IMG/VR virus record: IMGVR_UViG_3300021365_000004
Coordinates: 1-64,000 of that record
DNA from: a virus
Length of the DNA stretch: 64,000 nucleotides
Direction: 5' to 3' (one strand)
Part shown: piece by piece, positions 24,869-44,919 of the stretch
Position numbering within the stretch: position 1 is the stretch's first letter
Layout: each line of letters opens with the position of its first letter
The notes under the pieces: model-generated
What the model was told of the DNA's origin: nothing
Seen by the model: the letters and a program-made list of their open reading frames with translations, nothing else
The model's database searches: none
Made by a program: the position numbers and the translations under genes

Positions 24869-26251
24869 TTAACTATCATCCCTTTCATCACGTTTGTTTG
24901 TAATCATGAACTTACGTGCTGGATTTATCATTAAGTTTGCACGTTGCATAAGGTCACGGTTCGCAAGAAACGGTATTGCACCTCTAGTATCTAAACTAAC
25001 TTCTTGCTCATATATAGTGTTTAGAAAGTTTAACTCAAGTTCTACGACTGGTCTGTCTTCAGCTGGTTTTAATAAAGTAACCATTCTCTTTAGTGGTTTC
25101 TTATACTTAACACCTTCCGTTGTCCATGTAACTATCTTACCGTTAACCTTTAAATCTTCTGCATGAAGTGAACAAGCTGAAACTGAATTACCTGTATCTA
25201 ACTTCACTGTCATCTCTTGACCTTCGACTTCAATGGTTTCTAATACACCACACTCTGTTGGTGACTTCTTCCATATGTCTCGGTCTTTATAAATCTTAAG
25301 AACCATCTTAACAATGTCCTCACCGATAACACTAGAGATTCCTTCAGTGCCTGGCGAATGATTTACTTCTAATAAGAATGGTGGTTCAGTCTTTCTGTTT
25401 TTGCTAGGAATAAAGTCGACACCACACCATTGTCCGTTGACGGCTTTGCTAGCTCTTAGACAAACATCCTTTTCCAGTTCTGTCAATGTAACTGATTGTG
25501 CATCTGCACCTTGGGATACATTACTTCTGAAATCATCTGTAATTTTGTTTCGTCTCATTGCACCAACGATTTCTCTGTTGACAATGACAACACGTACATC
25601 GTAATCTGATTCGATATACTCTTGTAATAGAATATCACAGTAGGGGTCAATCTTATAAATCAAGCTGACCTGTGATTGTAATGAACGTTCTGTTTCGATT
25701 AATAGAACACCCACACCTTTAGAACCCTGTAATGTTTTAAGTATCATCGGGAAGTTATTATCTAATGCTTCGTGAGCTCTATCTACAGTCTCGGGTTCAT
25801 CGTTTGGAATCAATACGGTACGTGGTTGGTTTAGACCTATCTCTTGCAGTCTCAGATACGTTCTAAACTTGTCTGAACAAACTTCGATACATTCCCTAGG
25901 GTTACACGTTGCAATGCCGTAGCGTTCAATCTGAGAGATTAAATCAAGGTAGGAATCTTTAGTGTTTACTGCACCACGAATCATAACTAATGTGTCTGCA
26001 TCAATCTCGAATCCTTTCTCATCGTCTGCATTGTGAATAGTAATCTTACCACTATCCTCATCACGTTCTAAGTATGCACCATTGATACGCACGTTGTAAA
26101 CATCCATACCCATCTTCTCTGCAACCCCAACTATCTTACCACTGGTAGATTTCTTTGATTGTTTCTTGGGACGTTCTGCAAGAACGACAAGGCGATAGGG
26201 GTCGGACTTCTTGATGTCTTCTTCGACTATCAGCTCATTAAATGATTTCAT
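24869..26251 (-). CDS. RimK-like ATP-grasp ligase fused to RimB-like protease
   Basis: 460 residues from M-K-S-F-N-E-L-I-V-E-E (starts at 26263 and 26293 are possible). Residues ~85-320 are an ATP-grasp ligase like RimK, which adds glutamates to ribosomal protein bS6: a D-K-F-R-T-Y-L-R-L preface, K-T-L-Q-G-S-K-G-V-G-V glycine loop, L-L-Q-E-Y-I-E, and E-V-N-H-S-P-G metal ligands. Residues ~334-455 match RimB-type retropepsin-like proteases (K-L-D-T-G-N-S-V-S-A-C, R-x(n)-L-A-N-R-D-L-M). Two usually separate enzymes acting on bS6 are joined. The N-terminal peptide resembles T4 capsid-targeting sequences. Other ATP-grasp substrates are possible. Confidence 0.85.
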   Translation of the reverse strand: MKSFNELIVEEDIKKSDPYRLVVLAERPKKQSKKSTSGKIVGVAEKMGMDVYNVRINGAYLERDEDSGKITIHNADDEKGFEIDADTLVMIRGAVNTKDSYLDLISQIERYGIATCNPRECIEVCSDKFRTYLRLQEIGLNQPRTVLIPNDEPETVDRAHEALDNNFPMILKTLQGSKGVGVLLIETERSLQSQVSLIYKIDPYCDILLQEYIESDYDVRVVIVNREIVGAMRRNKITDDFRSNVSQGADAQSVTLTELEKDVCLRASKAVNGQWCGVDFIPSKNRKTEPPFLLEVNHSPGTEGISSVIGEDIVKMVLKIYKDRDIWKKSPTECGVLETIEVEGQEMTVKLDTGNSVSACSLHAEDLKVNGKIVTWTTEGVKYKKPLKRMVTLLKPAEDRPVVELELNFLNTIYEQEVSLDTRGAIPFLANRDLMQRANLMINPARKFMITNKRDERDDS

Positions 26252-26591
26252 CTTTGTTGCCATTCCTATGCAATTCCACAAAGTGTTCAGCATCTACTAA
26301 CACTAAGGGTTTATGTCTGTTTCTTTTTATGACCACAAGTGGTTCATACCCTTTACAATTCTCTGAAGCTTGCTCGTATGCTTTCCATACGTTGACTGTT
26401 TCTTGGTTTTTACATTCAATGGAATAGGGGAACTTCTCTCGGGACTCACGTCCCATTATAATATCTTCCCCTTGTGAACCCATGGGTCTAGACTCTAAGT
26501 CTTCTTCGTGAAGGTTAAGAGTGTCCACCATAAGTTGAGCAAACCATTGTTGTAGTTTACGACCTTTAGCTTTTGCTGACGATGTCTTCAT
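26238..26591 (-). CDS. PD-(D/E)XK nuclease, Holliday-junction resolvase-like
   Basis: 117 residues. The pattern G-R-K-L-Q-Q-W-F-A-Q-L-M (helix), R-P-M-G-S-Q-G-E-D-I-I-M (D of the core) and Y-S-I-E-C-K-N-Q-E (E-x-K) followed by W-K-A-Y-E-Q-A forms an endonuclease-like core as in archaeal-type resolvases and VRR-NUC relatives. The role is probably DNA junction or branch cleavage. It overlaps the HesB gene by 26 bp. Confidence 0.75.
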   Translation of the reverse strand: MKTSSAKAKGRKLQQWFAQLMVDTLNLHEEDLESRPMGSQGEDIIMGRESREKFPYSIECKNQETVNVWKAYEQASENCKGYEPLVVIKRNRHKPLVLVDAEHFVELHRNGNKDEII

Positions 26592-26898: not shown

Positions 26899-26906
26899 TA
26901 TTTATA
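26899..26906 (-). promoter_or_regulatory. Late promoter TATAAATA abutting HesB start
   Basis: Exact octamer, 6 nt before ATG, within a 16-bp inverted repeat (GAAGTAT..ATACTTC, 26894-26909) that also spans the stop of the carbamoyltransferase C-terminal gene. Confidence 0.65.
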
Positions 26907-27546
26907 CTTCTGACTCCCACACACCATCCTGTTCTGTGTCATTTTTTAAATCTTTTGATTTCTTAGGTCGAATCAATTCGTATGGAATACCATCTGGCTG
27001 GTCTTCGGGTACGTAAAGGAATCCAATGTCGGAACGGTTACACGTATCGATTGCATCAAAGATTGTTTCTACTAAAGATTCTCCACCTAAATTAAATGAT
27101 GTATTAAATACAATGGGGGTGCCATTCTTTTCACCCAAGGCTTTAATTAAATTGTAATAATTTTTATTCTGCTCTTGAGTAACCGTTTGGATTCTACATG
27201 TACCATCTGCATGAACGATAGCAGGAATCTCTTCGTATGCTTTCTTCTTACATTGAATTGCAAATGACATATAAGGTGACTCTTCTAACTGCAACATCTC
27301 AAAATATTCATGTGCATGTTCTTTTAATACAGTACCAGCAAACGGTCTATAATATTCTCTCTTCTTAATTGTATTAACAATTTGTTTTGCATCGGGATTA
27401 GTAGGGTCAAATAAAATACTACGGTTACCTAATGCACGTGGGCCCCATTCAGAACTACCTTGGAACATTGCAACAACTTGTTTTTCTTCAACCAATAATC
27501 TGACTGCTTCGTCTTGGTCTCTAATGATTTCTAATATTCTACTCAC
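26902..27546 (-). CDS. Carbamoyltransferase C-terminal domain subunit (GTG start)
   Basis: 214 residues matching the C-terminal domain of NodU/TobZ carbamoyltransferases: M-F-Q-G-S-S-E-W-G-P-R-A-L-G-N-R-S-I-L near residue 29, K-K-R-E-Y-Y-R-P-F-A near 61, V-H-A-D-G-T-C-R near 111 and N-T-S-F-N-L-G-G-E near 148. The GTG start overlaps the stop of the N-terminal gene by 8 bp in a different frame. In most bacteria both domains are one chain of about 550-600 residues. Here they would associate as two subunits. Confidence 0.82.
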   Translation of the reverse strand: MSRILEIIRDQDEAVRLLVEEKQVVAMFQGSSEWGPRALGNRSILFDPTNPDAKQIVNTIKKREYYRPFAGTVLKEHAHEYFEMLQLEESPYMSFAIQCKKKAYEEIPAIVHADGTCRIQTVTQEQNKNYYNLIKALGEKNGTPIVFNTSFNLGGESLVETIFDAIDTCNRSDIGFLYVPEDQPDGIPYELIRPKKSKDLKNDTEQDGVWESEV

Positions 27547-28762
27547 TGTCTGTTTCCTCTGTTGTTACTTCTTCTGTTACTGGTTCGAAGTATTCGTTTT
27601 CTAAATGATAATGCAACCAAAATGCAGCTCCAACTGCAGTACCACCATCGTGGGGTACAGGGTCAACGAATATATTTAATTCGGGAAACTCTTGTAGGTA
27701 TCTGTAATTGTTTGTACAGTTTAATGAGAAGCCACCACTGAGAACTAAGTTCTTACAGTCGGGATTTAATTCTATTGCACGTCTGATAACACTACATGCA
27801 TTATTAAATGATTCCTCTTCACACATCTGTGCAACGATATGTCTATCAAATCTATCGGGTCTGTCTTCGTACAGTCTTCCGTATGATGCCATACCCATGA
27901 CCTTACCCGCTGCACGTCCATGAATGTCTGCACCGAAGGCATAACTCATGTTACTGAAGTTCATACCGCTAGAAGGGAAGCTAGTGAACGTGAGAGGTAG
28001 TCCATCTATCTCTGTCTCCAAGTCTGTCAGACAATGAGCTGAGTCATAGTACATGTTAGGAAAGTATTGAGATGCAAGGTCACCTAACATACGGTGATTA
28101 GACATCTTCTTCCACTGGGGAACAATAGTCTTAGTGTCAAAGTCACACTTCCAAATGGATTCAATCTCTTGATAGTTCGGATGTGTCTCATGATAGCACT
28201 TAGCACCACCACCGTCCCATGCAATTGCTATTGCATTCTCACCCTTTTCAAAGAAAGGACTGAGATAATAACCACTGTATGCATGATACATGTGATGTTC
28301 TGTGTCAAAGTGATACTGGTCTACGTCAAAGAACTGTTTACACATCTCATCATGAATGGTTTCATCCATTTCTTCGTGCCAGTCTTCTTTAAGTCCCACT
28401 TTGGGATAGGCTTTAATTAATTCTTGGATTCTTGCTTCGGTTAATTGTTCCTTTGCAAGTGCATCTGCAAACTCTATTGCAATGAGACGATTATCCATGA
28501 GATAATCTTTATCCATTTCGAGTTTCATGTCACGTCTATCGAAAGATGCGAAGACTAACTCACCCTGTACGTTACCTTCCTCATCCACCAATGAATCTGC
28601 AAGACCTTTAGAGTCGATTACATGTAAGTGAGGTGCATCTAAAGTCGGTGAATAATACTTTTCACGTCTTTCTCTTTCTTCTTCGAAGAGTTCTACTACC
28701 TCTCCATCTTCCATGATACATAAACTGGTATCATGGCTGGAATTAATTCCAATTATTCTCAT
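27539..28762 (-). CDS. Carbamoyltransferase N-terminal domain (NodU/TobZ type)
   Basis: 407 residues. It opens with I-I-G-I-N-S-S-H-D-T-S and has E-E-E-R near residue 28, H-H-M-Y-H-A-Y-S-G-Y near 155, A-W-D-G-G-G near 180, G-K-V-M-G-M-A-S-Y-G near 285 and N-L-V-L-S-G-G-F-S-L-N-C near 343, the ASKHA/Kae1-like core that binds iron, ATP and carbamoyl adenylate. It ends with an acidic Glu/Thr tail and stops just before the partner gene. Phages carry these genes possibly for modifying nucleotides or surface sugars. SD AAAGGA lies 9 bases before ATG. Confidence 0.88.
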   Translation of the reverse strand: MRIIGINSSHDTSLCIMEDGEVVELFEEERERREKYYSPTLDAPHLHVIDSKGLADSLVDEEGNVQGELVFASFDRRDMKLEMDKDYLMDNRLIAIEFADALAKEQLTEARIQELIKAYPKVGLKEDWHEEMDETIHDEMCKQFFDVDQYHFDTEHHMYHAYSGYYLSPFFEKGENAIAIAWDGGGAKCYHETHPNYQEIESIWKCDFDTKTIVPQWKKMSNHRMLGDLASQYFPNMYYDSAHCLTDLETEIDGLPLTFTSFPSSGMNFSNMSYAFGADIHGRAAGKVMGMASYGRLYEDRPDRFDRHIVAQMCEEESFNNACSVIRRAIELNPDCKNLVLSGGFSLNCTNNYRYLQEFPELNIFVDPVPHDGGTAVGAAFWLHYHLENEYFEPVTEEVTTEETDSE

Positions 28763-31566: not shown

Positions 31567-32208
31567 ATGATACCCTTTGAATTATATTCAATCACCCCCT
31601 CAGTCCCCCTCTATGGGGAAATCTTTCGTATTCCTAACTACTACTCTGAGAAGGAACTGACACATATAAGAGAGCGTATAGCACATGATGTGAATAAGAT
31701 AGGTGGGTATGTACCCGATACTTGTTATCCATCTATGAAAATAGAGTATACCACTGACCCACAATCTAAGTTTGTCTCTGAGAAGTCTCAATGGTTATTG
31801 GATAATTGGTCTCTTATACGTGAATTGACTGAGATAGATGACATTCAATACCATGGGGATAACACTAAGGTTCCTCAATGGGTTGATGAGTCTGCACGTG
31901 GTTCTCCCCCCTATAATAAGCTTTATCCCCCTCATACGGATATGGGAAGCAGGAAGTTGCTGACGATACTTGTTCCTTTAAGTGATATGGGTGACCCTAC
32001 GAAGTTTCATGGTATTACCTCTGATAAGTCTAAGCCCGTGTCTCGTGTATGGTGTCATGAGTGGGGTGTGAATGATGCTTATATGTTTAGACCGTCTCAA
32101 AGGTCGTGGCATTCCTATCAAAATACTATGGGGATTGATAGGTGGATTAGTAATGTGAATTTGATTGGTGAGTTGGTTGTTGGGGAACTAGCAAACGATA
32201 ATAATTAA
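31567..32208 (+). CDS. 2OG-Fe(II) oxygenase-like protein (plus strand)
   Basis: 213 residues. The double-stranded beta-helix ligands are visible: P-P-H-T-D-M-G near residue 121 (H-x-D), then L-L-T-I-L-V-P-L, and distal H in S-W-H-S-Y near 178 with R in I-D-R-W-I-S. It probably hydroxylates an unknown substrate. It is the only plus-strand gene in the 11-64 kb region and ends convergently, overlapping the next oxygenase by 4 bp. Divergence from its neighbours suggests independent acquisition. Confidence 0.72.
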   Translation: MIPFELYSITPSVPLYGEIFRIPNYYSEKELTHIRERIAHDVNKIGGYVPDTCYPSMKIEYTTDPQSKFVSEKSQWLLDNWSLIRELTEIDDIQYHGDNTKVPQWVDESARGSPPYNKLYPPHTDMGSRKLLTILVPLSDMGDPTKFHGITSDKSKPVSRVWCHEWGVNDAYMFRPSQRSWHSYQNTMGIDRWISNVNLIGELVVGELANDNN

Positions 32209-32912
32209 TCTATCTCTATATGTAGAAAAGACTCTAAGGCTCGTTCCTCGTGGTATATACTGGGTGGGTTTAATGTTGTTGATGACATGTGACCGTCTAT
32301 GTGAATGTCGAATGCTTGAGAACATCTAGCCTCCTGTCTCGTGTTGGAGTCTACGGAATGCACGATGAGTGGACTAAACAAATGCAAGTCACCTCTTATG
32401 TTTTCTACCCATCCCTTACCTTGATACCATGTACCGTATTCTCTATGGTCGTTATGACTAAGGAATATATTACCGCTAATCATGTGTTGGTTTACGATAG
32501 GAATGATGTGTTGTTGTGACTTATCTATTTCCCAATCGTGTTCCCCTATTTGATTTAACTCTAGACCCGCGTGAATGTGGGGTCTTATGCCTTCGCCTTT
32601 GTCCCATCGATTACACCAACTCTTAATAAACACATCCTTGCAGTCTCGTGTGTCTACGAATGACATGATTCTTTCTATGAGATTGATACCCAGTTCGTCT
32701 TCGATAAGAGGTATCCAGTTATAGGTGGAATGTAGTGCAGTGAGACCAGTGTATCCATCGGAGTCTGCCCATACGATATTCTCGGGTGAGAATTCTTCGA
32801 TAAGTTGTGTGTGATGTGTAGAAATAAGTTCTACAATGGAGTCACATTCGACTTCACTGTAGAACTTTGGTATGACTATGTGATAGTCTTCGGATTGTCT
32901 TATAGAACCCAC
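32205..32912 (-). CDS. 2OG-Fe(II) oxygenase-like protein
   Basis: 235 residues. R-P-H-I-H-A-G-L-E supplies the first ligands (H-x-H/D position), S-G-N-I-F-L-S a core strand, and G-D-L-H-L-F-S-P-L-I-V-H-S-V-D with a following R-x-x-x-R-C the distal His and 2OG Arg. An aspartate in the H-x-D is replaced by His in H-I-H, so activity is less certain. It overlaps the glycosyltransferase-like gene upstream by 13 bp. Confidence 0.68.
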   Translation of the reverse strand: MGSIRQSEDYHIVIPKFYSEVECDSIVELISTHHTQLIEEFSPENIVWADSDGYTGLTALHSTYNWIPLIEDELGINLIERIMSFVDTRDCKDVFIKSWCNRWDKGEGIRPHIHAGLELNQIGEHDWEIDKSQQHIIPIVNQHMISGNIFLSHNDHREYGTWYQGKGWVENIRGDLHLFSPLIVHSVDSNTRQEARCSQAFDIHIDGHMSSTTLNPPSIYHEERALESFLHIEID

Positions 32913-33778
32913 AGTTCAAGATACCTGTCGGATTTAGGGTCTTTCCCTTCTCCTTTTAAATGTAGAAAGCTACATTGTTGACTGATATCTCTGTACTCGT
33001 GTTCAAAGGTAATGAATTGTGCTTGTTGGTCTCCACCAAGTCCTCTCCATTCTCCTTCATTCTCGAATGATGGTCGTACATTGGTTTCCCATTTCTGATT
33101 CATTTCCAAGTTTGCAAACTCATCACCAATAATGTATTGACCTACGATACCATGGTTAGTGTTTAACACCATACCTTTGTTCTCTGCAATTTGGTCTTCG
33201 ATGTATTGCTGTACGTTTGCACCATACTTTTCTTGAATGCCTGCTTTGTCAGCGAGGAAATTGTCGATAATGTACTTACCATCACCTTGTACCCAGCCAC
33301 AGAAATGTGGGAAGTATTGAGTATCCCCATCTTCCATCCAGTTTCTTTCTTGAAAGAAGAATGATGTATTATTCTCTTTGATAGCTGCAGTTTCTTCATC
33401 TGTGAAGGTGAAGTTGCATTCGTCTGTAGTACCTTTAGAAGGTAGACCTTCGTATATGACGGATGTACACATTTGTCTTGCAACGACTCTTGCATTGACA
33501 TAGGTACACTTAGATTCTTCTCTAAGTCCCTTCATATCTCCGTCCCATAGTAAGACTTGATACCATTCGTCATGAATGATTTCGGGGTCTTTCATTAATG
33601 GGATAACACGGATGCCTTCATCAAGACCTGTAGGGTCATCGGTATAGCAAGATAACCTTGCGATGGACATACCGTCATTTGTTAGACTTCTCTGTCTGTC
33701 TAACGATAACTTTAATCGATTTACATCTTCAGATGTAACTCCAAGACCATCGGTCTTAATTGTAACCACTTCAAACAT
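32900..33778 (-). CDS. Glycosyltransferase-like protein
   Basis: 292 residues. The first 85 residues follow a phage glycosyltransferase pattern: F-E-V-V-T-I-K, V-N-R-L-K-L-S-L-D-R-Q, L-S-C-Y-T-D-D-P-T-G-L and V-I-P-L-M, with W-Y-Q-V-L-L-W-D. C-terminal half has N-T-N-H-G-I-V-G-Q-Y near residue 213. I infer a nucleotide-sugar type fold from memory of related phage proteins. It is downstream of the TTGACG-17-TATAAT promoter with AGGAG before ATG. Coupling to an oxygenase suggests a glycan-modification pathway. Confidence 0.55.
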   Translation of the reverse strand: MFEVVTIKTDGLGVTSEDVNRLKLSLDRQRSLTNDGMSIARLSCYTDDPTGLDEGIRVIPLMKDPEIIHDEWYQVLLWDGDMKGLREESKCTYVNARVVARQMCTSVIYEGLPSKGTTDECNFTFTDEETAAIKENNTSFFFQERNWMEDGDTQYFPHFCGWVQGDGKYIIDNFLADKAGIQEKYGANVQQYIEDQIAENKGMVLNTNHGIVGQYIIGDEFANLEMNQKWETNVRPSFENEGEWRGLGGDQQAQFITFEHEYRDISQQCSFLHLKGEGKDPKSDRYLELWVL

Positions 33779-33850
33779 TTAACACTCCTATAAAAATAAT
33801 ATATTTGATTTCTGATTTTATTTAGGGTATAAAAAACCCTTCATACTTCT

Positions 33851-33879
33851 ATTATAAGATATATGAAGGGTCTCGTCAA
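33851..33879 (-). promoter_or_regulatory. Early promoter TTGACG-17-TATAAT
   Basis: Minus strand, near-perfect. A roughly 60-nt leader with a small GGGT..ACCC hairpin leads to the glycosyltransferase-like gene. Confidence 0.75.
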
Positions 33880-33883
33880 CTGG

Positions 33884-33997
33884 CTATTTAAACATTTCTT
33901 CTACAAGAACGTGTATGTCACCACTCTTCATCATATCGTTAAATTTGTCTGCTAGTGTCCTAAGATACGAGGCAGACAATGATGCGTAATATTGCAT
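33884..33997 (-). CDS. Tiny peptide (37 aa)
   Basis: 37 residues: M-Q-Y-Y-A-S-L-S-A-S-Y-L-R-T-L-A-D-K-F then an acidic helix ending M-F-K. AGGAGATAAAA before ATG is the best Shine-Dalgarno in the region, which argues for translation despite the size. Confidence 0.55.
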   Translation of the reverse strand: MQYYASLSASYLRTLADKFNDMMKSGDIHVLVEEMFK

Positions 33998-34078
33998 TTT
34001 TATCTCCTATATTTGTCGTAACAATCTGATACTCGGACTTCGAACTTAATCTACTTACTCTTGTATCGTACTTGTTAC

Positions 34079-34108
34079 ATAAGTGTGACATTTATGTGTC
34101 ACACTTAT
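34079..34108 (-). terminator. Strong hairpin after the outer membrane protein gene
   Basis: A perfect 12-bp stem (ATAAGTGTGACA / TGTCACACTTAT) with a 6-nt loop lies 20 bp past the outer membrane protein stop. Only a short A/T stretch follows. It probably terminates or stabilises that transcript. Confidence 0.65.
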
Positions 34109-34127
34109 ATATAGGTGAATCAACAAC

Positions 34128-34769
34128 TTAGAAGTTGTATAGTAATCCTACTGATATACTATCTGCAACTTGGTCTTCGAACACATCTTGACCAATCATA
34201 CCTGTTAAGGTAAAACTCTCATTCAAGTCATAACTCACATTGAGTTGACCGAATGTATCTTCACTGTCATATAGACCACCAACCAATGTTACGTCCAATA
34301 CTGGAATGAACCATAGGTCATATCCAATCTCGGCATAGTTATCATTCGTATCAATATCTTGATAGTATGATAAGGATAGGTTGCCAATATCTGCAGCTGC
34401 ATATAACTCTTCAAAAGATTCCACTGACCCATCGTATGTATATCTGATATACCCAACGTTCAATGTTACCTTGTCGGTTATAGGTAGTAATAGACCACCA
34501 TAGAAATCTGTCTCACTGGTTGCATCATCAAACTCAACGTCTGAGTTCCATGCACCAACATATAGTCCAGTTCCCTCGTGAAGAACCAAACCACCGACTG
34601 ACAATGCTGGTTGGTTTCCTTGTGAGACACCTCTCCATACATAGTCTGATTTATAACCTATCTCACCAGTGAAAGAAAATGATGGTGTTGATTCCACCCC
34701 TGCTCTTTCATCTGCTAAGACTCCAAATGACATTACTGTAAACAATAATGTTGCTAATATATTTTTCAT
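34128..34769 (-). CDS. Outer-membrane beta-barrel protein, TIGR02001/Gcw_chp-like
   Basis: 213 residues from M-K-N-I-L-A-T-L-L-F; AAAGGAG is 7 bases upstream. A signal peptide is cleaved near V-L-A. The mature protein alternates short amphipathic strands: F-T-G-E-I-G-Y-K-S-D-Y-V-W-R-G-V-S-Q, L-Y-V-G-A-W-N-S-D-V, D-F-Y-G-G-L-L-L and a C-terminal aromatic end L-L-Y-N-F, typical of Gcw_chp porin-like bacterial proteins. It is rare for a phage. It might alter the host surface, block superinfection or aid nutrient entry. Probably acquired from a proteobacterium. Confidence 0.8.
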   Translation of the reverse strand: MKNILATLLFTVMSFGVLADERAGVESTPSFSFTGEIGYKSDYVWRGVSQGNQPALSVGGLVLHEGTGLYVGAWNSDVEFDDATSETDFYGGLLLPITDKVTLNVGYIRYTYDGSVESFEELYAAADIGNLSLSYYQDIDTNDNYAEIGYDLWFIPVLDVTLVGGLYDSEDTFGQLNVSYDLNESFTLTGMIGQDVFEDQVADSISVGLLYNF

Positions 34770-34782
34770 ATATTCTCCTTTT

Positions 34783-34810
34783 TTTATTATCATGATTTTA
34801 TTATCATGAT
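34783..34810. repeat. 14-bp tandem repeat in the outer membrane protein leader
   Basis: Two perfect head-to-tail copies of TTTATTATCATGAT lie between tRNA-Ala and the Shine-Dalgarno of the outer membrane protein gene. Likely a slippage duplication; it may affect leader structure. Confidence 0.6.
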
Positions 34811-34816
34811 TAGTAC

Positions 34817-34892
34817 TGGTGGAGCTAGAGGGAATCGAACCCACGACCTACTGATTGCAAACCAGTCGCTCTCCCAACTGAGCTATAGCCCC
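34817..34892 (-). tRNA. tRNA-Ala (UGC)
   Basis: 76 nt cloverleaf with encoded CCA. Acceptor GGGGCTA/TAGCTCC, D arm GCTC..GAGC, anticodon loop TTTGCAA, T loop TTCGATT. The T stem has one U-U mismatch. It serves GCN Ala codons and is near an OMP gene and a small gene. Confidence 0.93.
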
Positions 34893-34898
34893 AGTAAA

Positions 34899-35060
34899 CT
34901 ATTCTTTAATTTGTTTTGTCTTTCTTGACTTATAGACTTTCTTTTTAGACTCGTCTATGTTAGGTGTAGATTTATCGTCTGCAACAAAACGACCTTTCTC
35001 GTCTCTTGCTCTGACCCATTCAAATCCTAACCAGTCTGTGAATTTATCCCAAAATGCCAT
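34899..35060 (-). CDS. Small basic protein (53 aa)
   Basis: 53 residues: M-A-F-W-D-K-F-T-D-W-L-G-F-E-W then a Lys-rich tail. GGAG precedes ATG. It ends just before tRNA-Ala. Unrecognised. Confidence 0.6.
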   Translation of the reverse strand: MAFWDKFTDWLGFEWVRARDEKGRFVADDKSTPNIDESKKKVYKSRKTKQIKE

Positions 35061-35074
35061 AAATTACTTCTCCT

Positions 35075-35704
35075 TTACACCGTTTTATAGTGTACGTTAC
35101 CTGCTACCGATATCCTTTCACCTTGTGGGTCATGGAATGGGTAGACAGAATGATTCAACCACGATGGGAAGATAAGTATATCTCCCTTCTCGGGGTAATG
35201 TGACATGGATGTCCAATTCATAAAATTGTTCTCTCCATAATGTAAGTCTATATGACCAGCAAGTGGTCTAGACTCTTTCGTTGTGGCCCTATCAAATTGA
35301 TTATTGATAGCGACATCTCGTTTGATGGTGTTCTTTGTGTAGAATACGAAACTAAACATACCATCATGTGCATGAATAGGATTGTATTCAAATTCTTTCT
35401 GTAGATTAACCCAAAGGCCCTCTATTTGCAGCTGTTCACTGTAAACTTCCATACCTATCTGTTGGGCCCATGTCACTACATGGTCTAGAATGTGACTCTT
35501 TGTATTCTCGGTTACTACATCTTCAATGGATACTTGTGTATCAACTCTACCAGCAAGTAAGTCTGCACCTATCTTGTGGTCTTTGTTGTATCTACGTGAT
35601 TCTATATCTCGATTAACTTCATCGATGACATCCATATCCATCTTTCCAACCCAAACTGGTGGGCCGAATGGTGTGATGAGTTCACCTTCAGGGCTATTCT
35701 TCAT
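35075..35704 (-). CDS. 2OG-Fe(II) oxygenase (2OG-FeII_Oxy_5 type)
   Basis: 209 residues from M-K-N-S-P-E-G-E-L (AGAGG upstream). G-L-W-V-N-L-Q, N-P-I-H-A-H-D-G-M-F-S-F-V-F-Y (H-x-H-D), and F-P-S-W-L-N-H-S-V-Y-P-F with R-I-S-V-A-G-N match the common phage dioxygenase family whose final H and R bind iron and 2OG. Substrate unknown. It is part of a run of related but divergent oxygenases. Confidence 0.82.
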   Translation of the reverse strand: MKNSPEGELITPFGPPVWVGKMDMDVIDEVNRDIESRRYNKDHKIGADLLAGRVDTQVSIEDVVTENTKSHILDHVVTWAQQIGMEVYSEQLQIEGLWVNLQKEFEYNPIHAHDGMFSFVFYTKNTIKRDVAINNQFDRATTKESRPLAGHIDLHYGENNFMNWTSMSHYPEKGDILIFPSWLNHSVYPFHDPQGERISVAGNVHYKTV

Positions 35705-35933
35705 CTGACCTCTTTTCAGTAAGGACTGCATGTGGCAATCCATTCTTTCTTCTTCTCACGAACTCGTTTGCAATCTTCTGACGCAATTTACCTTTCCCTC
35801 GTTGTGTAAGTATCTTATTGTATTCTTCAATAAGCTCTTTCAGTGGAGTAGATTTCATATAATAATGTGTTACTGAAACTTTTCCTGTTCCACGTGCAAC
35901 GGTTTTTTGGGTTGGTTTAAATTTTGTCGGCAT
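35694..35933 (-). CDS. Conserved small basic protein
   Basis: 79 residues from M-P-T-K-F-K-P-T-Q-K. It continues H-Y-Y-M-K-S-T-P-L-K-E-L-I-E-E-Y-N and K-L-R-Q-K-I-A-N-E-F-V-R-R, matching a small protein of marine T4-like phages (memory). Basic and helical; possible nucleic-acid binding. Overlaps both neighbours by 11-17 bp. Confidence 0.65.
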   Translation of the reverse strand: MPTKFKPTQKTVARGTGKVSVTHYYMKSTPLKELIEEYNKILTQRGKGKLRQKIANEFVRRRKNGLPHAVLTEKRSDEE

Positions 35934-36090
35934 TTTGCTCCTTGGTTCGGGGTTTATGTTTAACATGCCAGTCATGACTACAATATGCATCACAAAAAAC
36001 ATGCACTGGTTTTTGGTTGATTGGTGTGTGGTATTTGACTTGTGTCATATCTAGTTCTTTTTTACACTCACTACATTTAATCTTGTTCAT
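35917..36090 (-). CDS. Small zinc-finger-like protein
   Basis: 57 residues from M-N-K-I-K-C-S-E-C-K-K (the frame extends three codons further). C-S-E-C near residue 6 and C-D-A-Y-C-S-H near 34 form a four-cysteine zinc site. It may bind DNA or RNAP. Overlaps the oxygenase upstream. Confidence 0.65.
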   Translation of the reverse strand: MNKIKCSECKKELDMTQVKYHTPINQKPVHVFCDAYCSHDWHVKHKPRTKEQNADKI

Positions 36091-36721
36091 CGAAGTCACT
36101 TCCTTCTTCGTTATGTCGTTTAAACCATATTGCTAGAACGTATCTTTCACCTTGAAAGAGAGGTTCCACTCCATGCCACCTTTCAGTGGAATTGTTGAAT
36201 GCAACCATGGTTCCTGTTCGTGGTTGTAAGATATGTCCTTCGACATTCAAACGTCCACCTTGATAATTGTCATTCAACATAAAGATTGTTGTACCTGTAT
36301 CATCTTGGTCTGCTTCATCTTTATGCCATTGGAACATTGTATCCGTTGGATATTTCATTATCGTAGCATACGTTATTTCTCCAAACTCTGCAGTTTTAGG
36401 AAGATATGGCTCCACTAAGTCTAGAACTTCCTCGAATGGTGTAGTACCTTGTTCCAGTACAGTCACATCGTGTCCAGTACGTGGATGTTCGTATCTCCAT
36501 GATTTATCCATAACAGACAGTTCTTTGGCACATATCTGTCCATTATCCTCTTGGAAAACTTCGGATATTACCATTCTATCCATTACATTTATAATAACAT
36601 CACATGACTCTTGTGTCAATACGCTATCTGCAATCATTAGTAGATTGGATGCAGTCTCCTCATACTCATGTGAAGCATCTTTGACTACTTGTGTACTGAC
36701 TACTAGTTTTCGTATCGGCAT
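36077..36721 (-). CDS. 2OG-Fe(II) oxygenase (prolyl-4-hydroxylase-like)
   Basis: 214 residues. F-Q-W-H-K-D-E-A-D supplies H-x-D, then I-F-M-L-N-D-N-Y-Q-G-G-R-L-N-V-E-G and F-N-N-S-T-E-R-W-H-G-V-E-P-L with G-E-R-Y. All ligands of the P4H fold are present. It is coupled by one base to the next oxygenase. Substrate unknown. Confidence 0.85.
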   Translation of the reverse strand: MPIRKLVVSTQVVKDASHEYEETASNLLMIADSVLTQESCDVIINVMDRMVISEVFQEDNGQICAKELSVMDKSWRYEHPRTGHDVTVLEQGTTPFEEVLDLVEPYLPKTAEFGEITYATIMKYPTDTMFQWHKDEADQDDTGTTIFMLNDNYQGGRLNVEGHILQPRTGTMVAFNNSTERWHGVEPLFQGERYVLAIWFKRHNEEGSDFDEQD

Positions 36722-37419
36722 TATCTGTCTCTATGATTTGGTACAGGGTGGAAGAATCTCACGTATGAGTATCTCCATTTGTCTTCACAATATTTGGTGT
36801 AATCATCTATCCATGCACCATGTAATTTGTTACCAGTGAAAATAACACATGTGTTGTATTTGGCTGGTATGATGTAATCAATCTCAAACTCTTCTTCAAC
36901 TGGATATAGAACACCCATATGTTCCATGTTGGTAATCCACTCACCTTTATATACTGCAGTTCCACCGCTCTCTTCTTTATCCATGTATACTAACATATTC
37001 AATGTGGACTTATCATCGGGTGTGATGAAATCACTGTCGATGTGTGGGTAGTGTTGCATTCTAGTATCAAACTCTGTTATTGTTTGAAAACAATTAAACT
37101 CATGAATCTGTTTGTAGTCATAGTCTCCTGTCCACCAGTATTTTCTACATAGTTCTAGGATTCTATCCATTTCATTAATCCCGACTCTAGTAGGATGTCC
37201 TATCTTGTCTGTAATACGACAATCATTGTATACGGTACCATTGGGTGAATCTCTTTCTGTAGAGTATTTCCACATAGGGTACTGTCTACTTGAGATGTGG
37301 TCATATATGTCTTCGGGGTTCTCAAAGAAATCGTGTATTGTGAGAACACCATTCTCGAATTCATAATCTAGTTTGGGGTTGATTGCATACAGCTCATCAA
37401 GTGCGTAAGTCTTTTTCAT
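36721..37419 (-). CDS. 2OG-Fe(II) oxygenase-like protein
   Basis: 232 residues. H-Y-P-H-I-D-S-D-F gives H-x-D near residue 125, followed by L-V-Y-M-D-K-E-E-S-G-G-T-A-V-Y and F-T-G-N-K-L-H-G-A-W with R-Y-S-Y-V. Iron and 2OG ligands look intact. An AATAAATA element lies 5 nt before ATG, predicting a leaderless late transcript that begins a pair of oxygenases. Confidence 0.78.
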   Translation of the reverse strand: MKKTYALDELYAINPKLDYEFENGVLTIHDFFENPEDIYDHISSRQYPMWKYSTERDSPNGTVYNDCRITDKIGHPTRVGINEMDRILELCRKYWWTGDYDYKQIHEFNCFQTITEFDTRMQHYPHIDSDFITPDDKSTLNMLVYMDKEESGGTAVYKGEWITNMEHMGVLYPVEEEFEIDYIIPAKYNTCVIFTGNKLHGAWIDDYTKYCEDKWRYSYVRFFHPVPNHRDR

Positions 37420-37424
37420 AATAT

Positions 37425-37432
37425 TATTTATT
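37425..37432 (-). promoter_or_regulatory. Late-like element AATAAATA abutting a start codon
   Basis: One mismatch to the T4 late octamer, 5 nt before ATG at 37419. Confidence 0.45.
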
Positions 37433-38183
37433 TGCCGTCAAAAAGGTGACGATATGACATATTGTCACCAGTAGTATTGCTGTTGAATTGTTCTCTTAGT
37501 TTAAGGTTGAATGATAGTGAATATCTCAGTTCTTTGCTTTCTGATTCCATAGACGGTGGAACAGCATGCATCAAATAAGACGGCCAAAGTAGGAAATCAC
37601 CAGCCGTTGGGTAGAACATCATATCAGACTGAAATCCAGTACATCCAGTAAACTCCATATGGGGTTTATCATTGAACGTTCTCAAATCCTCAACTCCATT
37701 ATGTACATGACATGCAGCCATGTTAGGATTCCAAAACTTGATTGGTCTGTCGGATGAATTGATATACCATGTACCACTCATATGTGAATCTACGTGATTG
37801 TGTATTTCGTGTTGATGCTCTGCATCATATCTGTTGACCCATGCAAACAGATGTATATCGTCTCTGCAGTATTGTCTAACATCTCTATCGAATTGTGTTC
37901 TTACGAACTCGATATAGGTATCTTTGATTGTGTTTGAGAAATCCTTGAACCATGGTAAGATATGAGTTTGAGTTCTTATGTCCTCATCAAAGTATGATGT
38001 GTAATTAGACAACTTGTCCTTGTTACTCTTTCCAGCAACATGGTCAATCAACTTGTCTATATCTCTCTTCACCAAGCCTGGTGAGTAATCTAATTGACCC
38101 CTCAAGAATGGTGTCGCAAACATAGGTATCACCCTATGTCGTGCTGGTTGAAACTTCTGTTGGTCTTGTTTCGCTGGTTTCAT
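37428..38183 (-). CDS. 2OG-Fe(II) oxygenase-like protein
   Basis: 251 residues. W-V-N-R-Y, H-E-I-H-N-H-V-D-S-H-M-S-G-T-W-Y-I near residue 127 and F-L-L-W-P-S-Y-L-M-H-A-V-P-P with R-Y-S-L-S-F-N match the same phage dioxygenase family as 35075. It overlaps the small membrane gene upstream. Confidence 0.8.
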   Translation of the reverse strand: MKPAKQDQQKFQPARHRVIPMFATPFLRGQLDYSPGLVKRDIDKLIDHVAGKSNKDKLSNYTSYFDEDIRTQTHILPWFKDFSNTIKDTYIEFVRTQFDRDVRQYCRDDIHLFAWVNRYDAEHQHEIHNHVDSHMSGTWYINSSDRPIKFWNPNMAACHVHNGVEDLRTFNDKPHMEFTGCTGFQSDMMFYPTAGDFLLWPSYLMHAVPPSMESESKELRYSLSFNLKLREQFNSNTTGDNMSYRHLFDGK

Positions 38184-38425
38184 AGTTTAATCGCCAATAA
38201 TAGTAAAATTGATATTAGTAATATGTTTGTCATGAAGATACCGATTGCAAGAATGGTATGATACCAAATCCATCTTGTCTTGTACGCATTCTCAATTGAT
38301 ATGTCGTTGGGGTCAACATCATCTTCCATCATGTCGATTTTTTTAGGTTCTATCGACACATCATACACGATTTCTTTATCTTCTTGCCAAGCCCAATCTA
38401 CAAATTTGTCAAACCACTTAGTCAT
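38180..38425 (-). CDS. Small C-terminal-anchored membrane protein
   Basis: 81 residues. An acidic soluble part is followed by one C-terminal membrane segment (T-I-L-A-I-G-I-F-M-T-N-I-L-L-I). It lies between spanin genes and oxygenases. Unrecognised. Confidence 0.6.
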   Translation of the reverse strand: MTKWFDKFVDWAWQEDKEIVYDVSIEPKKIDMMEDDVDPNDISIENAYKTRWIWYHTILAIGIFMTNILLISILLLLAIKL

Positions 38426-38963
38426 CCGCCTTCTCTATTTTAACTGCAACCCCCTTCTCATTTCCTTTCGGGGTTTTGATAGTAACGTTTCTGTAGTATA
38501 CAACTACTTCACCTAATTGCTTTATGTATCGTTTGAGTTCTTGCATGTTTGCACTCATGACCTCATAGTCTCCTATGGTAGTCGCAACGAATACAACCTC
38601 ACCACCATTCTGTTCTTTCATTTCATCTAAGAAATAATCAAGGTGTGTGTAACCAACTGGCCACTCGGGATTGTCTCTGTCCTCAAGGTTACATGTCTTA
38701 GGACGTTTAAGTTGTTCTACACCCTCTTCATCGAACTTCTTAGGGTCAAATGATAGGGTCTTTCTGCATAGGTTATCTTTCTTTGCCTCTGATACAACAA
38801 ACCATGTAGGTGCAGTCATTTCAATAGGTCTTGGTAATGTAGGTTGAATGATATCTATTTCAATAGGTGCAGATACAACCTCAATCTGCTTGGTTCCTAA
38901 TAAACTACAACCACTAATCGTCGCGATTAGACTCGTCAAGATTATAAATTTCTTGTGTATCAT
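38418..38963 (-). CDS. Candidate outer-membrane spanin lipoprotein
   Basis: 181 residues. M-I-H-K-K-F-I-I-L-T-S-L-I-A-T-I-S-G-C is a lipoprotein signal (I-S-G-C). A Pro-rich linker follows (P-T-L-P-R-P-I-E-M-T-A-P). Near the end Y-E-V-M-S-A-N-M-Q-E-L-K-R-Y-I-K-Q then Y-Y-R-N resembles phage o-spanin-type proteins. Its start is embedded 50 bp inside the upstream i-spanin-like gene, the classic overlapping layout. Confidence 0.65.
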   Translation of the reverse strand: MIHKKFIILTSLIATISGCSLLGTKQIEVVSAPIEIDIIQPTLPRPIEMTAPTWFVVSEAKKDNLCRKTLSFDPKKFDEEGVEQLKRPKTCNLEDRDNPEWPVGYTHLDYFLDEMKEQNGGEVVFVATTIGDYEVMSANMQELKRYIKQLGEVVVYYRNVTIKTPKGNEKGVAVKIEKADD

Positions 38964-39297
38964 CTTCTATTCCCTCAAATACTCTATCAGTTCCACGATT
39001 GAACTTACCTGTCATTATACCAGGCTTTGCAACTGCAAGAGCGTTTAAATTATGTCTTTGGAATATCTGTAGATACTCCGCCTTTTCTGCTTCAATCGAT
39101 GCATTTTTACGACTCATGTTTTGTAATGCTTTACCCTGTTTCTCAAACTGTTCTTTCATTACTTCCATAGCACGTTGTTGTTCTTCTACTGCAGCTTCTA
39201 ACTTAATGTTATTTTGGGTAAGTGTTTGATTCTCATTATACAAAAAGAAACAAAACAATCCCACTGCTACTAGAAGACCCATAGTTAATTGATTCAT
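38914..39297 (-). CDS. Candidate inner-membrane spanin (Rz-like)
   Basis: 127 residues: an N-terminal membrane anchor (T-M-G-L-L-V-A-V-G-L-F-C-F-F-L), a coiled coil (residues 28-80) and a C-terminal N-L-N-A-L-A-V-A-K-P-G-I-M plus N-R-G-T-D-R-V-F-E-G-I-E-D-D-T, a pattern repeated in phage spanin-like proteins. It fuses inner and outer membranes at lysis with the overlapping lipoprotein. Confidence 0.65.
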   Translation of the reverse strand: MNQLTMGLLVAVGLFCFFLYNENQTLTQNNIKLEAAVEEQQRAMEVMKEQFEKQGKALQNMSRKNASIEAEKAEYLQIFQRHNLNALAVAKPGIMTGKFNRGTDRVFEGIEDDTQEIYNLDESNRDD

Positions 39298-39557
39298 TAA
39301 TCTATCTCCTCTATTTTTACTTCAAGTCCTTTGACCGAACGTATCTCTACTACGTTCTTGGTTTCATAGTCTTTGAATTTTAAATGTTTCGGTCTATTAA
39401 TCATGACATTTCTTGATACATATTCCGACTTGTACATATTACCACCTTCCGATTGACGGTAGATTGTAATCTTGTATTCTGCTTTGAATAGGGATTTCAG
39501 CCATTCCCAAATGACCCATACCCCTCTACGCATGAATACTCCTATCTTTTTAAGCAT
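39297..39557 (-). CDS. Hypothetical small protein near spanins
   Basis: 86 residues, basic, with an amphipathic Trp-rich N-terminus (V-W-V-I-W-E-W-L-K-S-L-F) and a beta-rich rest. Overlaps both neighbours. Possibly part of the lysis cassette, by position only. Confidence 0.55.
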   Translation of the reverse strand: MLKKIGVFMRRGVWVIWEWLKSLFKAEYKITIYRQSEGGNMYKSEYVSRNVMINRPKHLKFKDYETKNVVEIRSVKGLEVKIEEID

Positions 39558-40182
39558 AGTCTATCCATCCTGTTATTATTTTCTTCTCTCCCTTCAATGG
39601 TGGGTTGCCTCTATGCATATGCGTAAAACCAGCAGGCCACAATACAATGTCACCTCTCTTTGGTTTGATACGTAATGATTGATATAGGAATTCTAACTCA
39701 CCCCCCTCTTCCACGTCATTTAGGAAGATTGCCCATGCCAGTAGGGATTTACTGCTTGATGGACAATTACAATGTTCACAATGCCAGACATGATATCCTT
39801 GTTGTGGTAGTGTCTTTTGAATCTTTGCACCACTGACCATAAGACCCCTGTAGTTGTCTCGGACTGGGTACTTGTCAAACCAACTATCAATTACCCCACC
39901 TTCCTCTTCGAAGATGTCTAGTAATCGATTCATCTGACCACCGAAATATGATTCGGGTACTGAAGTGATGCTGATTGCATCGTCTGATTTGGATGTAATG
40001 ATTTGTGTATCGTAGGACTTTCTTGGTAGTGTTAAACCACGGTCTTCACACTTCTGATATATGTCTAACACATAGTCAATAAACTCATCCGTGGCAAAAC
40101 CTTGGTATAACAGAACATGCTCACCCAAGTCTTCTATAGTTCGTTCTTGTTCTTGTTGTTGTCGATGTATTTCTCGTCTCAT
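39550..40182 (-). CDS. 2OG-Fe(II) oxygenase (P4H-like)
   Basis: 210 residues. W-H-C-E-H near residue 133 (metal-ligand H region), L-L-A-W-A-I-F-L-N-D-V-E-E-G-G-E-L-E-F, G-D-I-V-L-W-P-A-G-F-T-H-M-H-R-G-N-P and K-I-I-T-G-W match phage P4H-like dioxygenases. The H-x-D aspartate is replaced by Glu-like spacing (H-C-E), a possible variant ligand. Confidence 0.78.
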   Translation of the reverse strand: MRREIHRQQQEQERTIEDLGEHVLLYQGFATDEFIDYVLDIYQKCEDRGLTLPRKSYDTQIITSKSDDAISITSVPESYFGGQMNRLLDIFEEEGGVIDSWFDKYPVRDNYRGLMVSGAKIQKTLPQQGYHVWHCEHCNCPSSSKSLLAWAIFLNDVEEGGELEFLYQSLRIKPKRGDIVLWPAGFTHMHRGNPPLKGEKKIITGWIDYA

Positions 40183-42574: not shown

Positions 42575-42882
42575 TACTCTTCCTTAATAAAAATCCCATC
42601 GACCATACGTCCCTTACGGTCTTTGATGTCATGATATGCAACATTTAGACAATGTTGTAGACCTAGTCCATTTCTAGCTGCAATGTTAATTAATACGACA
42701 ATGATGTCACCAATATCATCGGCTACATCTTTTTCTTTACAGACATTGTCCGATAGTTCACCCACCTCTTGGATAAGTTTACATACTTGGTCTTTATCTG
42801 TTGCACCTTCAATAAGGTTTCTGTCGTAGTGCCATTTTTCAATGCGTTCAATTACTGATAGTAAATCTATGTCGGTAGTCAT
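42574..42882 (-). CDS. mazG: MazG-like nucleotide pyrophosphohydrolase
   Basis: 102 residues. K-L-I-Q-E-V-G-E-L-S-D-N near residue 35 and V-A-D-D-I-G-D-I-I-V-V-L near 54 form the MazG metal site. It hydrolyses nucleoside triphosphates or related alarmone-like nucleotides. It is common in marine phages. Overlaps QueC-like and NrdB genes by one base. Confidence 0.87.
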   Translation of the reverse strand: MTTDIDLLSVIERIEKWHYDRNLIEGATDKDQVCKLIQEVGELSDNVCKEKDVADDIGDIIVVLINIAARNGLGLQHCLNVAYHDIKDRKGRMVDGIFIKEE

Positions 42883-43979
42883 TATAACTCAAAATCCTCA
42901 AATGTAGAATCATCTACGTCCTGTTTGATGCCACCAATAAGATAGGATTCAATCTCCGTCTCTTGTGGGGCGTTTTGCAATCCTCTACTATTGAACCAAT
43001 GATTAGTCCATGGTAGTGGGTTGTTCGTTGATGAGATATCGAACAGTGGGTTGAGTCCCAATGCACGTAATCTCTTGTTTGCTGTGTATTCTACGTACTG
43101 ACCAAGCAGTGCAGTAGATAGTCCAATCATAGAACCGTCCTTAAATAAGAAGTCTGCCCATTCTTTCTCTTGGTCTACTGCATCACGGTACATTGCATAT
43201 ACCTCATCCTCAGTCTCTTCCATAATCTTCAACATATCTTTATCGTTCTCTTGGTTCTTATATGCTTTCAGAATGTGTTGTGTGATTGCTAGATGTTGTG
43301 CTTCATCCCTTGCAATAAGAGATATAATCTTTGCACTTCCTTCCATCTGTTTTAACTCTCCGAATGCAAATGAACATGCAAAGGATACGAAGAATCTAAT
43401 TCCCTCTAAGATGTTAACTGATACTAGTGCAAGGTATAATGCTTTCTTAAGCTCATATTCATCTACTTTAAGACCTAGTAATTTACGTCTTCCTAGTTCA
43501 ATAAACTTGTCGTATTTTTCTGTTACCTGTTCTGCTCTAGCTACGATTGCTGGTTCATCTAGTATTGTGTCAAATATCTGACTAGGGTCACTATATACAT
43601 TTTTTATAATATGAGTGTAACTTCGTGAATGAATAGTCTCCATGAAGTCCCATGTAATAATACAAGACTCAAGTTCAGGCAAGCTCACAAACGGTAAAAA
43701 TGCTATGGATGGAGCTCGTCCTTGAACTGAGTCGAGTAAAGTTTGATACCTCAAGTTAGAGGTAAAGATGTGTTTTTGTGCATCAGATAGATTCTGATAA
43801 TCACTTCTATCTTTCTGTAAGGATACCTCTTCGGGTCTCCAAAAGAAGCTCAATTGTGTCTGTGTTAGTTTGTCAAATATTGGATATTTGAATGTGTCAA
43901 ATCTTTGGGTGTTTAACTCTTCCCCGAAAAACATAGATTCTTTTGTGAAGTCTACGTTCTTTTTATTAAATACTGTCAT
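42882..43979 (-). CDS. nrdB: Ribonucleotide reductase class Ia beta subunit NrdB
   Basis: 365 residues from M-T-V-F-N-K-K-N-V. Metal-site helices: L-P-E-L-E-S-C-I-I-T-W-D-F-M-E-T-I-H-S-R-S-Y near residue 105 (E..E..H) and I-A-R-D-E-A-Q-H-L near 224. The radical Tyr is in the S-Y-T-H region. It makes dNTPs with NrdA and Grx. A dioxygenase gene separates it from nrdA. Confidence 0.93.
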   Translation of the reverse strand: MTVFNKKNVDFTKESMFFGEELNTQRFDTFKYPIFDKLTQTQLSFFWRPEEVSLQKDRSDYQNLSDAQKHIFTSNLRYQTLLDSVQGRAPSIAFLPFVSLPELESCIITWDFMETIHSRSYTHIIKNVYSDPSQIFDTILDEPAIVARAEQVTEKYDKFIELGRRKLLGLKVDEYELKKALYLALVSVNILEGIRFFVSFACSFAFGELKQMEGSAKIISLIARDEAQHLAITQHILKAYKNQENDKDMLKIMEETEDEVYAMYRDAVDQEKEWADFLFKDGSMIGLSTALLGQYVEYTANKRLRALGLNPLFDISSTNNPLPWTNHWFNSRGLQNAPQETEIESYLIGGIKQDVDDSTFEDFEL

Positions 43980-44919
43980 TTCTTTTTCTTCCACGTGTGT
44001 CTAGTTCAAAATCATCATAATTGTTAGTAAATGCACTTTTTTCATCTATATGATTAAAGTATACATCTGAGAACTCACTGAACCATTTCTTTGTTTCTTT
44101 GACATGCTCCTCATTGTTCTCATCTGCATATCTATTTGGTCTACCATCAAAGTCTAGTGCTAAATGTTCAGGGCAACCTGTATGCATTGCATTTATTTGG
44201 TTTAACTTACTGTCCTCATTCCAAAAATGTAGGAACATGTGATAGGAGTAATCACCCACTAGGTAATCTCTCCAGTGTATAACATTAGGCCCTTGGTATA
44301 GTAAAACGTCTCCAGGCTCTAGTGTTATTGGAATTCCCTTCCTTGCTCTATGTGGTAATCCTTGAGACATTTCAAACACCTCATCCATACTTGGAGAATC
44401 AACATAGTTACCATCATTCTGTACCCAAATCTTCCATGGTGCATTGTCATCTGTTTGGTAATCTAAACAAATTGTTGCACTTATTTCACATGATGGTCTA
44501 TCAGTATGAGCTCTTAGATATGCACCCCTCTCATACTTTCTAGAATATGAGTATGTTTCTCTTAGACCCATGTCAATAACATTGTTCAGCTTTTCCTTTA
44601 GCCATCTATGTAGGGAAACTGCCATCGGAGTACAATAGTTTGCACGTGATTTACCTAGTGAATCTTTTGGTGAGTTTTGGGTAATCTCCGTTTCTCTTTT
44701 GAAGATTGCATCATCCCACTCTTTGTTATGCTCAATAGTTTTCCATGCATCTAGTGACATGTTGATGATATCTTTGGGAATGAAATCTCTTAGAACTACG
44801 AACCTGTCCTTCATTAAAGACCACGTCTCGGGTGTAGTTCTACCAGTTAGAAGTTTACCTTCTTGTTCTAAGTCCTTTATACAATATTCTACAGTCTTTT
44901 TCTCAAATGGCACAGGCAT
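43966..44919 (-). CDS. 2OG-Fe(II) oxygenase between nrdA and nrdB
   Basis: 317 residues from M-P-V-P-F-E-K-K-T. Y-L-R-A-H-T-D-R-P-S-C-E-I-S near 150 gives H-x-D; W-K-I-W-V-Q, L-E-P-G-D-V-L-L-Y and N-V-I-H-W-R-D complete the dioxygenase core. It overlaps nrdA by 17 bp and nrdB by 14 bp, so it is made with the reductase. Substrate unknown; a link to nucleotide metabolism is only positional. Confidence 0.82.
   Translation of the reverse strand: MPVPFEKKTVEYCIKDLEQEGKLLTGRTTPETWSLMKDRFVVLRDFIPKDIINMSLDAWKTIEHNKEWDDAIFKRETEITQNSPKDSLGKSRANYCTPMAVSLHRWLKEKLNNVIDMGLRETYSYSRKYERGAYLRAHTDRPSCEISATICLDYQTDDNAPWKIWVQNDGNYVDSPSMDEVFEMSQGLPHRARKGIPITLEPGDVLLYQGPNVIHWRDYLVGDYSYHMFLHFWNEDSKLNQINAMHTGCPEHLALDFDGRPNRYADENNEEHVKETKKWFSEFSDVYFNHIDEKSAFTNNYDDFELDTRGRKRNDSI

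Follow-up and report, generated by a model that had tools for sequence, protein, structure and literature searches.

A Gcw_chp/TorF-family outer-membrane beta-barrel gene conserved beside tRNA-Ala in marine T4-like phages, with a possible role in the uptake of nitrogen nutrients

The IMG/VR virus record IMGVR_UViG_3300021365_000004 comprises 145,922 bases, of which bases 1-64000 constitute the window, that is, the whole 64,000-nucleotide stretch of DNA analysed here. On its minus strand, positions 34128-34769 hold an open reading frame of 213 residues, exactly where a sequence-only reading of the window had located a phage-encoded outer-membrane beta-barrel of the Gcw_chp/TIGR02001 type. ORFs were called by simple scripts, and the GTG listed as the start of this one (34844) falls within a tRNA gene; the ATG at 34769 is directly preceded by the Shine-Dalgarno site AGGAGA (34774-34779, minus strand), a start context that is seen again in the genes of the relatives. 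The protein begins with MKNILATLLFTVMSFGVLA, followed by D, which by inspection is a signal peptide (residues 1-19, encoded by 34713-34769 on the minus strand), and a similar hydrophobic leader opens all eight distinct phage relatives (8/8). At the other end, the C-terminus SVGLLYNF, again by inspection, fits the signal motif for barrel assembly. Immediately upstream, on the same strand, a tRNA-Ala(tgc) gene (34817-34892) stops 47 nt before the start codon, and behind it lies a 53-aa gene (34899-35060, minus strand) with no match in INPHARED. The signal peptide, the Shine-Dalgarno site and the position just after a tRNA, all of them part of the sequence-only reading, are thus borne out, but its mention of an own terminator is doubtful, because the 15-bp RNA hairpin found 3' of the stop codon (34076-34111, minus strand) is followed by no U-run and was not called by the terminator scan. 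The 108-nt post-stop stretch that includes this hairpin has a folding z of -2.95, and among the related loci L004 shares the hairpin, of which L007 has a version altered in sequence. Further downstream, a possible small ORF of 37 aa (33884-33997, minus strand) keeps its reading frame and the motif MMKSG in L004, L007 and L009, according to an alignment read by eye.

The barrel identity of the protein is well supported. It scores 59.8 bits against PF09694 (Gcw_chp; cut-off 24) and 98 bits against TIGR02001, the 'TorF family putative porin' (cut-off 47.15), so that both curated cut-offs are passed, and PHROG yielded no convincing match (best E 0.094). An AlphaFold2 model, built on an 8-row alignment, predicts a barrel of 12 strands with moderate confidence (pLDDT 70.2, pTM 0.64), in which the surface loops would be mostly very short. 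When this model was compared with known structures by VIA-align, the top match was KdgM (4pr7; Z 19.9, rmsd 2.2, 162 aligned residues), followed by VhGalP (Z 18.1), NanC (Z 17.9) and other barrels with Z up to 17.6; KdgM was also ranked first by Foldseek (E 2e-6), and the viral structures matched were other phage proteins of low identity, several of them named outer-membrane proteins. The predicted 12-stranded fold would therefore liken the protein to the KdgM/NanC monomeric porins (Z 17.6-19.9 over 162-179 residues), from which it differs in its acidity and in sequence, with 10-12% identity and no match to their sequence family: Pfam at E<=1 returns Gcw_chp alone, and phmmer against the PDB sequences found nothing. 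In the mature phage proteins (n=8), the net charge ranges from -14 to -28 and the number of basic residues from 2 to 10. This acidity is not specific to them, since the bacterial groups are likewise acidic (median net charge -15 to -33). With the bacterial Gcw_chp/TIGR02001 porins, the phage protein shares the sequence family, above both cut-offs, the signal peptide and the size; unlike them, it is encoded by a T4-like phage, belongs to a deep clade of its own and has its gene away from glnK-amtB.

The record encodes a T4-type DNA polymerase, helicase, clamp loader, portal, tail sheath, scaffold and terminase. Its portal matches those of the OM43 phage Melnitz (56.3% identity) and Pelagibacter phage Mosig (56.2%), the large terminase shows 55.9% identity to 'Phage C48C1', and a CHASE2-cyclase, encoded together with CsgG and a FecR-domain protein, is related to proteins of HTVC008M (39.7%) and Melnitz (33.3%). 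These core genes and similarities place the phage, as judged from its sequence, among the marine T4-like phages near the pelagimyophage/Melnitz group (Melnitz, Mosig, HTVC008M), with which it shares the T4-like core genes, CsgG and the CHASE2-cyclase. The genes for CsgG, the FecR-domain protein and the cyclase occupy one stretch outside the window (L015:13146-18784, minus strand, corresponding to record bases 77146-82784), in which the CHASE2-nucleotidyl cyclase measures 634 aa; it is striking to find a membrane cyclase encoded by phages. Other features of the record lie closer to the barrel gene. A minus-strand cluster of the 2OG-Fe(II) oxygenase type spans 32205-40182, its members at 35075, 36077, 37428 and 39550 being above the Pfam cut-offs, the one at 32205 under the cut-off and the one at 36721 a DUF6445 protein. 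A carbamoyltransferase (26902-28762) is present as two ORFs, N-terminal (27539-28762) and C-terminal (26902-27546), whose halves match separately in the related loci that reach that region, and 24869-26293 encodes an ATP-grasp protein of the RimK type, the C-terminal part of which weakly matches a zinc-protease family, under the cut-off.

The barrel gene occurs in 12 other IMG/VR contigs at 41-100% identity, and a repeat of the viral scan with the 8-row alignment returned the same 12. Its neighbourhood is conserved in them: tRNA-Ala lies directly upstream in 10 of the 12 loci, and the remaining two (L012 and L013) have it on the downstream side, separated from the barrel gene by the 53-aa gene. 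This 53-aa gene accompanies the barrel/tRNA pair in 12/12 loci, as does the gene for the protein at 32900-33778, the identity of which goes down to 27-31% in L012 and L013. The GC content of the barrel gene is phage-like (38.5 vs 38.2%). Furthermore, the phage barrel genes are under purifying selection, given that dN/dS is around 0.13-0.4 in the pairs compared and every value is below 1. By the Nei-Gojobori method, dN/dS was 0.021/0.054 for P0001-L004, 0.146/0.739 for P0001-L007, 0.048/0.370 for L010-L011, 0.227/1.208 for L009-L010, 0.080/0.368 for L012-L013 and a saturated 0.368/2.029 for P0001-L009; in the alignment (A3), the rows of L012 and L013 end 4 residues before the true C-terminus.

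Is the family known from isolated phages? INPHARED gave four matching contigs, all named Acinetobacter phage MD-2021a (CAKLQF020000008.1 and three more), and no other isolate with a Gcw_chp gene. The one of the four that was inspected (H2) has the chromosomal genes catABC/pca around its Gcw_chp gene, so these hits look like mislabelled bacterial contigs and the occurrence in isolated phages was rejected on that record. Bases 1-50000 of Melnitz, in which nrdA, nrdB and a tRNA-Arg(tct) are present, contain no match to the barrel protein nor to most of its near neighbours. A published phage Gcw_chp porin was not found in the literature searched, where the term 'TorF family putative porin' appeared, in the portions of text covered, as a mention in proteomics. 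The conserved phage outer-membrane gene is real, and within the databases searched this is the only phage group with the Gcw_chp family.

The eight distinct phage proteins form one clade, supported and deep, in every tree. In the 85-row tree, from which L087, L100 and L109 were left out as long branches, this clade pairs with a bacterial clade of 26 rows (support 98/92) at a point where long branches meet; 24 of those rows are amt-linked and the other two lie at contig edges. A direct descent of the phage protein from this glnK-amtB-linked clade, favoured by the trees at first, was then not accepted because of the long-branch warning and because clade profiles and BLAST favour other clades. 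The phage proteins score 38-58 bits against the profile of the amt clade, compared with 79-103 for clade c9, 78-91 for c14 and 70-82 for c12, and BLAST also pointed to clades other than the amt-linked one. Constraint tests for joining the phage clade gave p = 0.0196 with c12 and p = 0.0483 with c14, and in a tree without the amt clade the phage proteins stand alone. A search of genome contigs added one partial relative, from a Rhodobiaceae MAG (L014). The host, which the sequence-only reading had proposed to deduce from the closest bacterial homologues, could not be fixed in that way, as none of the bacterial groups sampled is closely related: even the best matches cover only part of the protein, at about 30-44% identity.

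What the bacterial relatives do offer is a recurrent genomic context. The phage alignment has matches in 191 of the 398 genomes from the phylum of G001, and a first set of 60 loci with flanks was drawn from them: 40 from near the top of the match list, with a few listed matches (e.g., second copies) skipped, and 20 hand-picked lower ones, chosen partly for full-length matches and small genomes. In 14 of these 60 loci (6/40 near the top of the list and 8/20 hand-picked), PII and/or Amt is encoded no more than two genes away and without exception on the same strand. Given how the 40 and the 20 were chosen, this is not an unbiased rate; the other 46 relatives are not beside glnK/amtB. Independently, Pfam assigned 8 of 116 neighbours to P-II and 4 to Ammonium_transp. 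A second set consisted of 17 loci. The order of G245, in which 43 of 78 genomes match, contributed 16 of these, and the examination covered 24 of its 43 matching genomes. In this second set Amt is found within two genes on the same strand in 15/17 loci, the remaining two (L138 and L152) being cut by contig ends, and L109, from the same order, is a counter-example that lacks glnK/amtB though its downstream sequence is available. The linkage appears in several clades and in both gene orders; since it is found in c12 (3/12), c9 (2/9), c5 (1/5) and c3 (2/3) but in none of c14 (0/14), it is a widespread, not universal, feature of the Gcw_chp family. In three bacterial loci (L101, L102 and L107), double arrays of porin-glnK-amtB-second porin-glnK are found, in which the second porin is a diverged paralogue.

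Because bacterial relatives often adjoin ammonium-uptake genes, the phage protein may help nitrogen uptake, and the suggestion of the sequence-only reading that such a protein may change uptake finds in this linkage an indirect argument. The explanation that we tentatively prefer, with somewhat less than even confidence, is that the gene is a phage version of the Gcw_chp/TorF porin that raises the uptake of small, perhaps cationic nitrogen nutrients; by analogy with the bacterial relatives, we infer such nutrients as the substrate. In an infected Gram-negative marine host, the barrel protein would be expressed and exported, and the barrel-assembly machinery of the host would insert it into the outer membrane, where it may act as a small, passive, acidic channel. 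Through this channel, small nitrogen nutrients, perhaps cationic ones like ammonium or amines, would pass to the periplasm, from which the host's own AmtB would carry them across the inner membrane, so that the phage would widen the outer-membrane step only and the extra nitrogen might benefit the synthesis of phage DNA and protein. In a more doubtful version, a phage branch of Gcw_chp, distinct from the bacterial ones and fixed beside tRNA-Ala in a group of marine Melnitz/pelagimyophage-like phages, would serve nitrogen acquisition as a channel on its own, reliant on the AmtB of the host. The family scores, the predicted 12-strand fold near monomeric porins, the linkage, the acidity and the dN/dS values speak for a nitrogen channel, as do the published bacterial nlmA-glnK-amtB operon and viral glnK-amtB-ompL module described below. 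Against it counts that PII and Amt are missing from the phage and the related viral records tested: P-II was found in 0/3 and Ammonium_transp in 0/11 such records (most of them fragments), and tblastn detected neither in the phage record nor in the 12 related loci. Also on that side stand the 46 of 60 unlinked relatives in the first set and the well-scoring clade c14 with its 0/14, the acidity shared by the bacterial groups, and the clade profiles that contradict kinship with the amt clade.

Several other functions have to be weighed. KdgM and NanC, the nearest folds, carry acidic sugars, and the name 'TorF' given by NCBI presumably refers to a tor gene; together with the fact that the highest-scoring bacterial clades for the phage proteins are for the most part without amt linkage, this is compatible with a nutrient channel for a non-nitrogen substrate (e.g., TMAO, an organic acid or a sugar); in that case only other branches of this large family would have the tie to ammonium. 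Such a channel is unlikely, as the strong acidity of the phage protein is ill-suited to anionic substrates and the amt linkage recurs across several clades. The likely outer-membrane location would also suit a change of the cell surface by which a phage receptor is masked or displaced, preventing superinfection or the adsorption of progeny to debris; the blocking of receptors had been suggested in the sequence-only reading as well. The lambdoid Lc/NmpC proteins are phage porins with this receptor-masking or exclusion action, and the barrel diverges faster than some of its neighbours (43% identity in L012, vs 83% for the protein at 42882-43994). Nevertheless, the modelled surface loops are mostly very short, the gene is under purifying selection and its relatives are common bacterial porins, all of which speaks against receptor masking, rated here as improbable. 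Lower still must be rated an alteration of outer-membrane permeability for lysis or envelope remodelling, as proposed for phage CsgG pores: this phage does encode CsgG, and a lysis-related role is put forward for the curli pores of Melnitz in the part of PMC9004378 covered, but the model predicts a porin-like barrel of 12 strands rather than a large pore, and the scan of neighbouring genes brought up none for lysis. Finally, a passenger acquired with the tRNA gene (a common site of acquired DNA) and of no benefit to the phage was rejected as highly improbable, since 12 other contigs retain the gene, at identities as low as 41% and with its neighbourhood conserved, every dN/dS is below 1 and the GC content is phage-like.

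The phage barrel can also be set beside three systems already described. The closest in theme is the viral glnK-amtB-ompL module: according to the portions of PMC8115048 covered, some marine viruses carry glnK-amtB followed by ompL, a porin gene of unknown substrate, a T4-like one carries glnK-amtB and no extra gene, and the module is traced to Bacteroidetes. As in that module, a marine virus here encodes an outer-membrane porin; the tie to ammonium is direct there, whereas the porin described here is of the Gcw_chp family and comes without glnK or amtB. In bacteria, the passages covered of PMC3023670 describe the nlmA-glnK-amtB operon of Herbaspirillum seropedicae as NtrC-dependent and induced by nitrogen limitation, with NlmA detected in membrane extracts and placed most probably in the periplasm. 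Its gene order resembles that of the bacterial loci with a co-oriented Gcw_chp gene, a context that the phage gene does not have. The third is the CsgG curli pore, whose genes are reported in Melnitz and the pelagimyophages in the sections covered of PMC9004378 and PMC7029224; the word 'porin' is absent from both main texts. CsgG is likewise a phage-encoded outer-membrane pore, also present in this record, but it belongs to an unrelated family and has another gene position.

The barrel gene is a variation on the nutrient-uptake genes already known from viruses. The products of viral nutrient genes are, as a rule, inner-membrane transporters, regulators or enzymes; if the explanation preferred here were true, ocean phages would re-equip the outer membrane of their hosts, and direct tests would become possible both of how ammonium passes the outer membrane and of what the uncharacterised Gcw_chp/TorF family does. 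For the bacterial members of this family, the recurring linkage to glnK-amtB is already a concrete functional lead.
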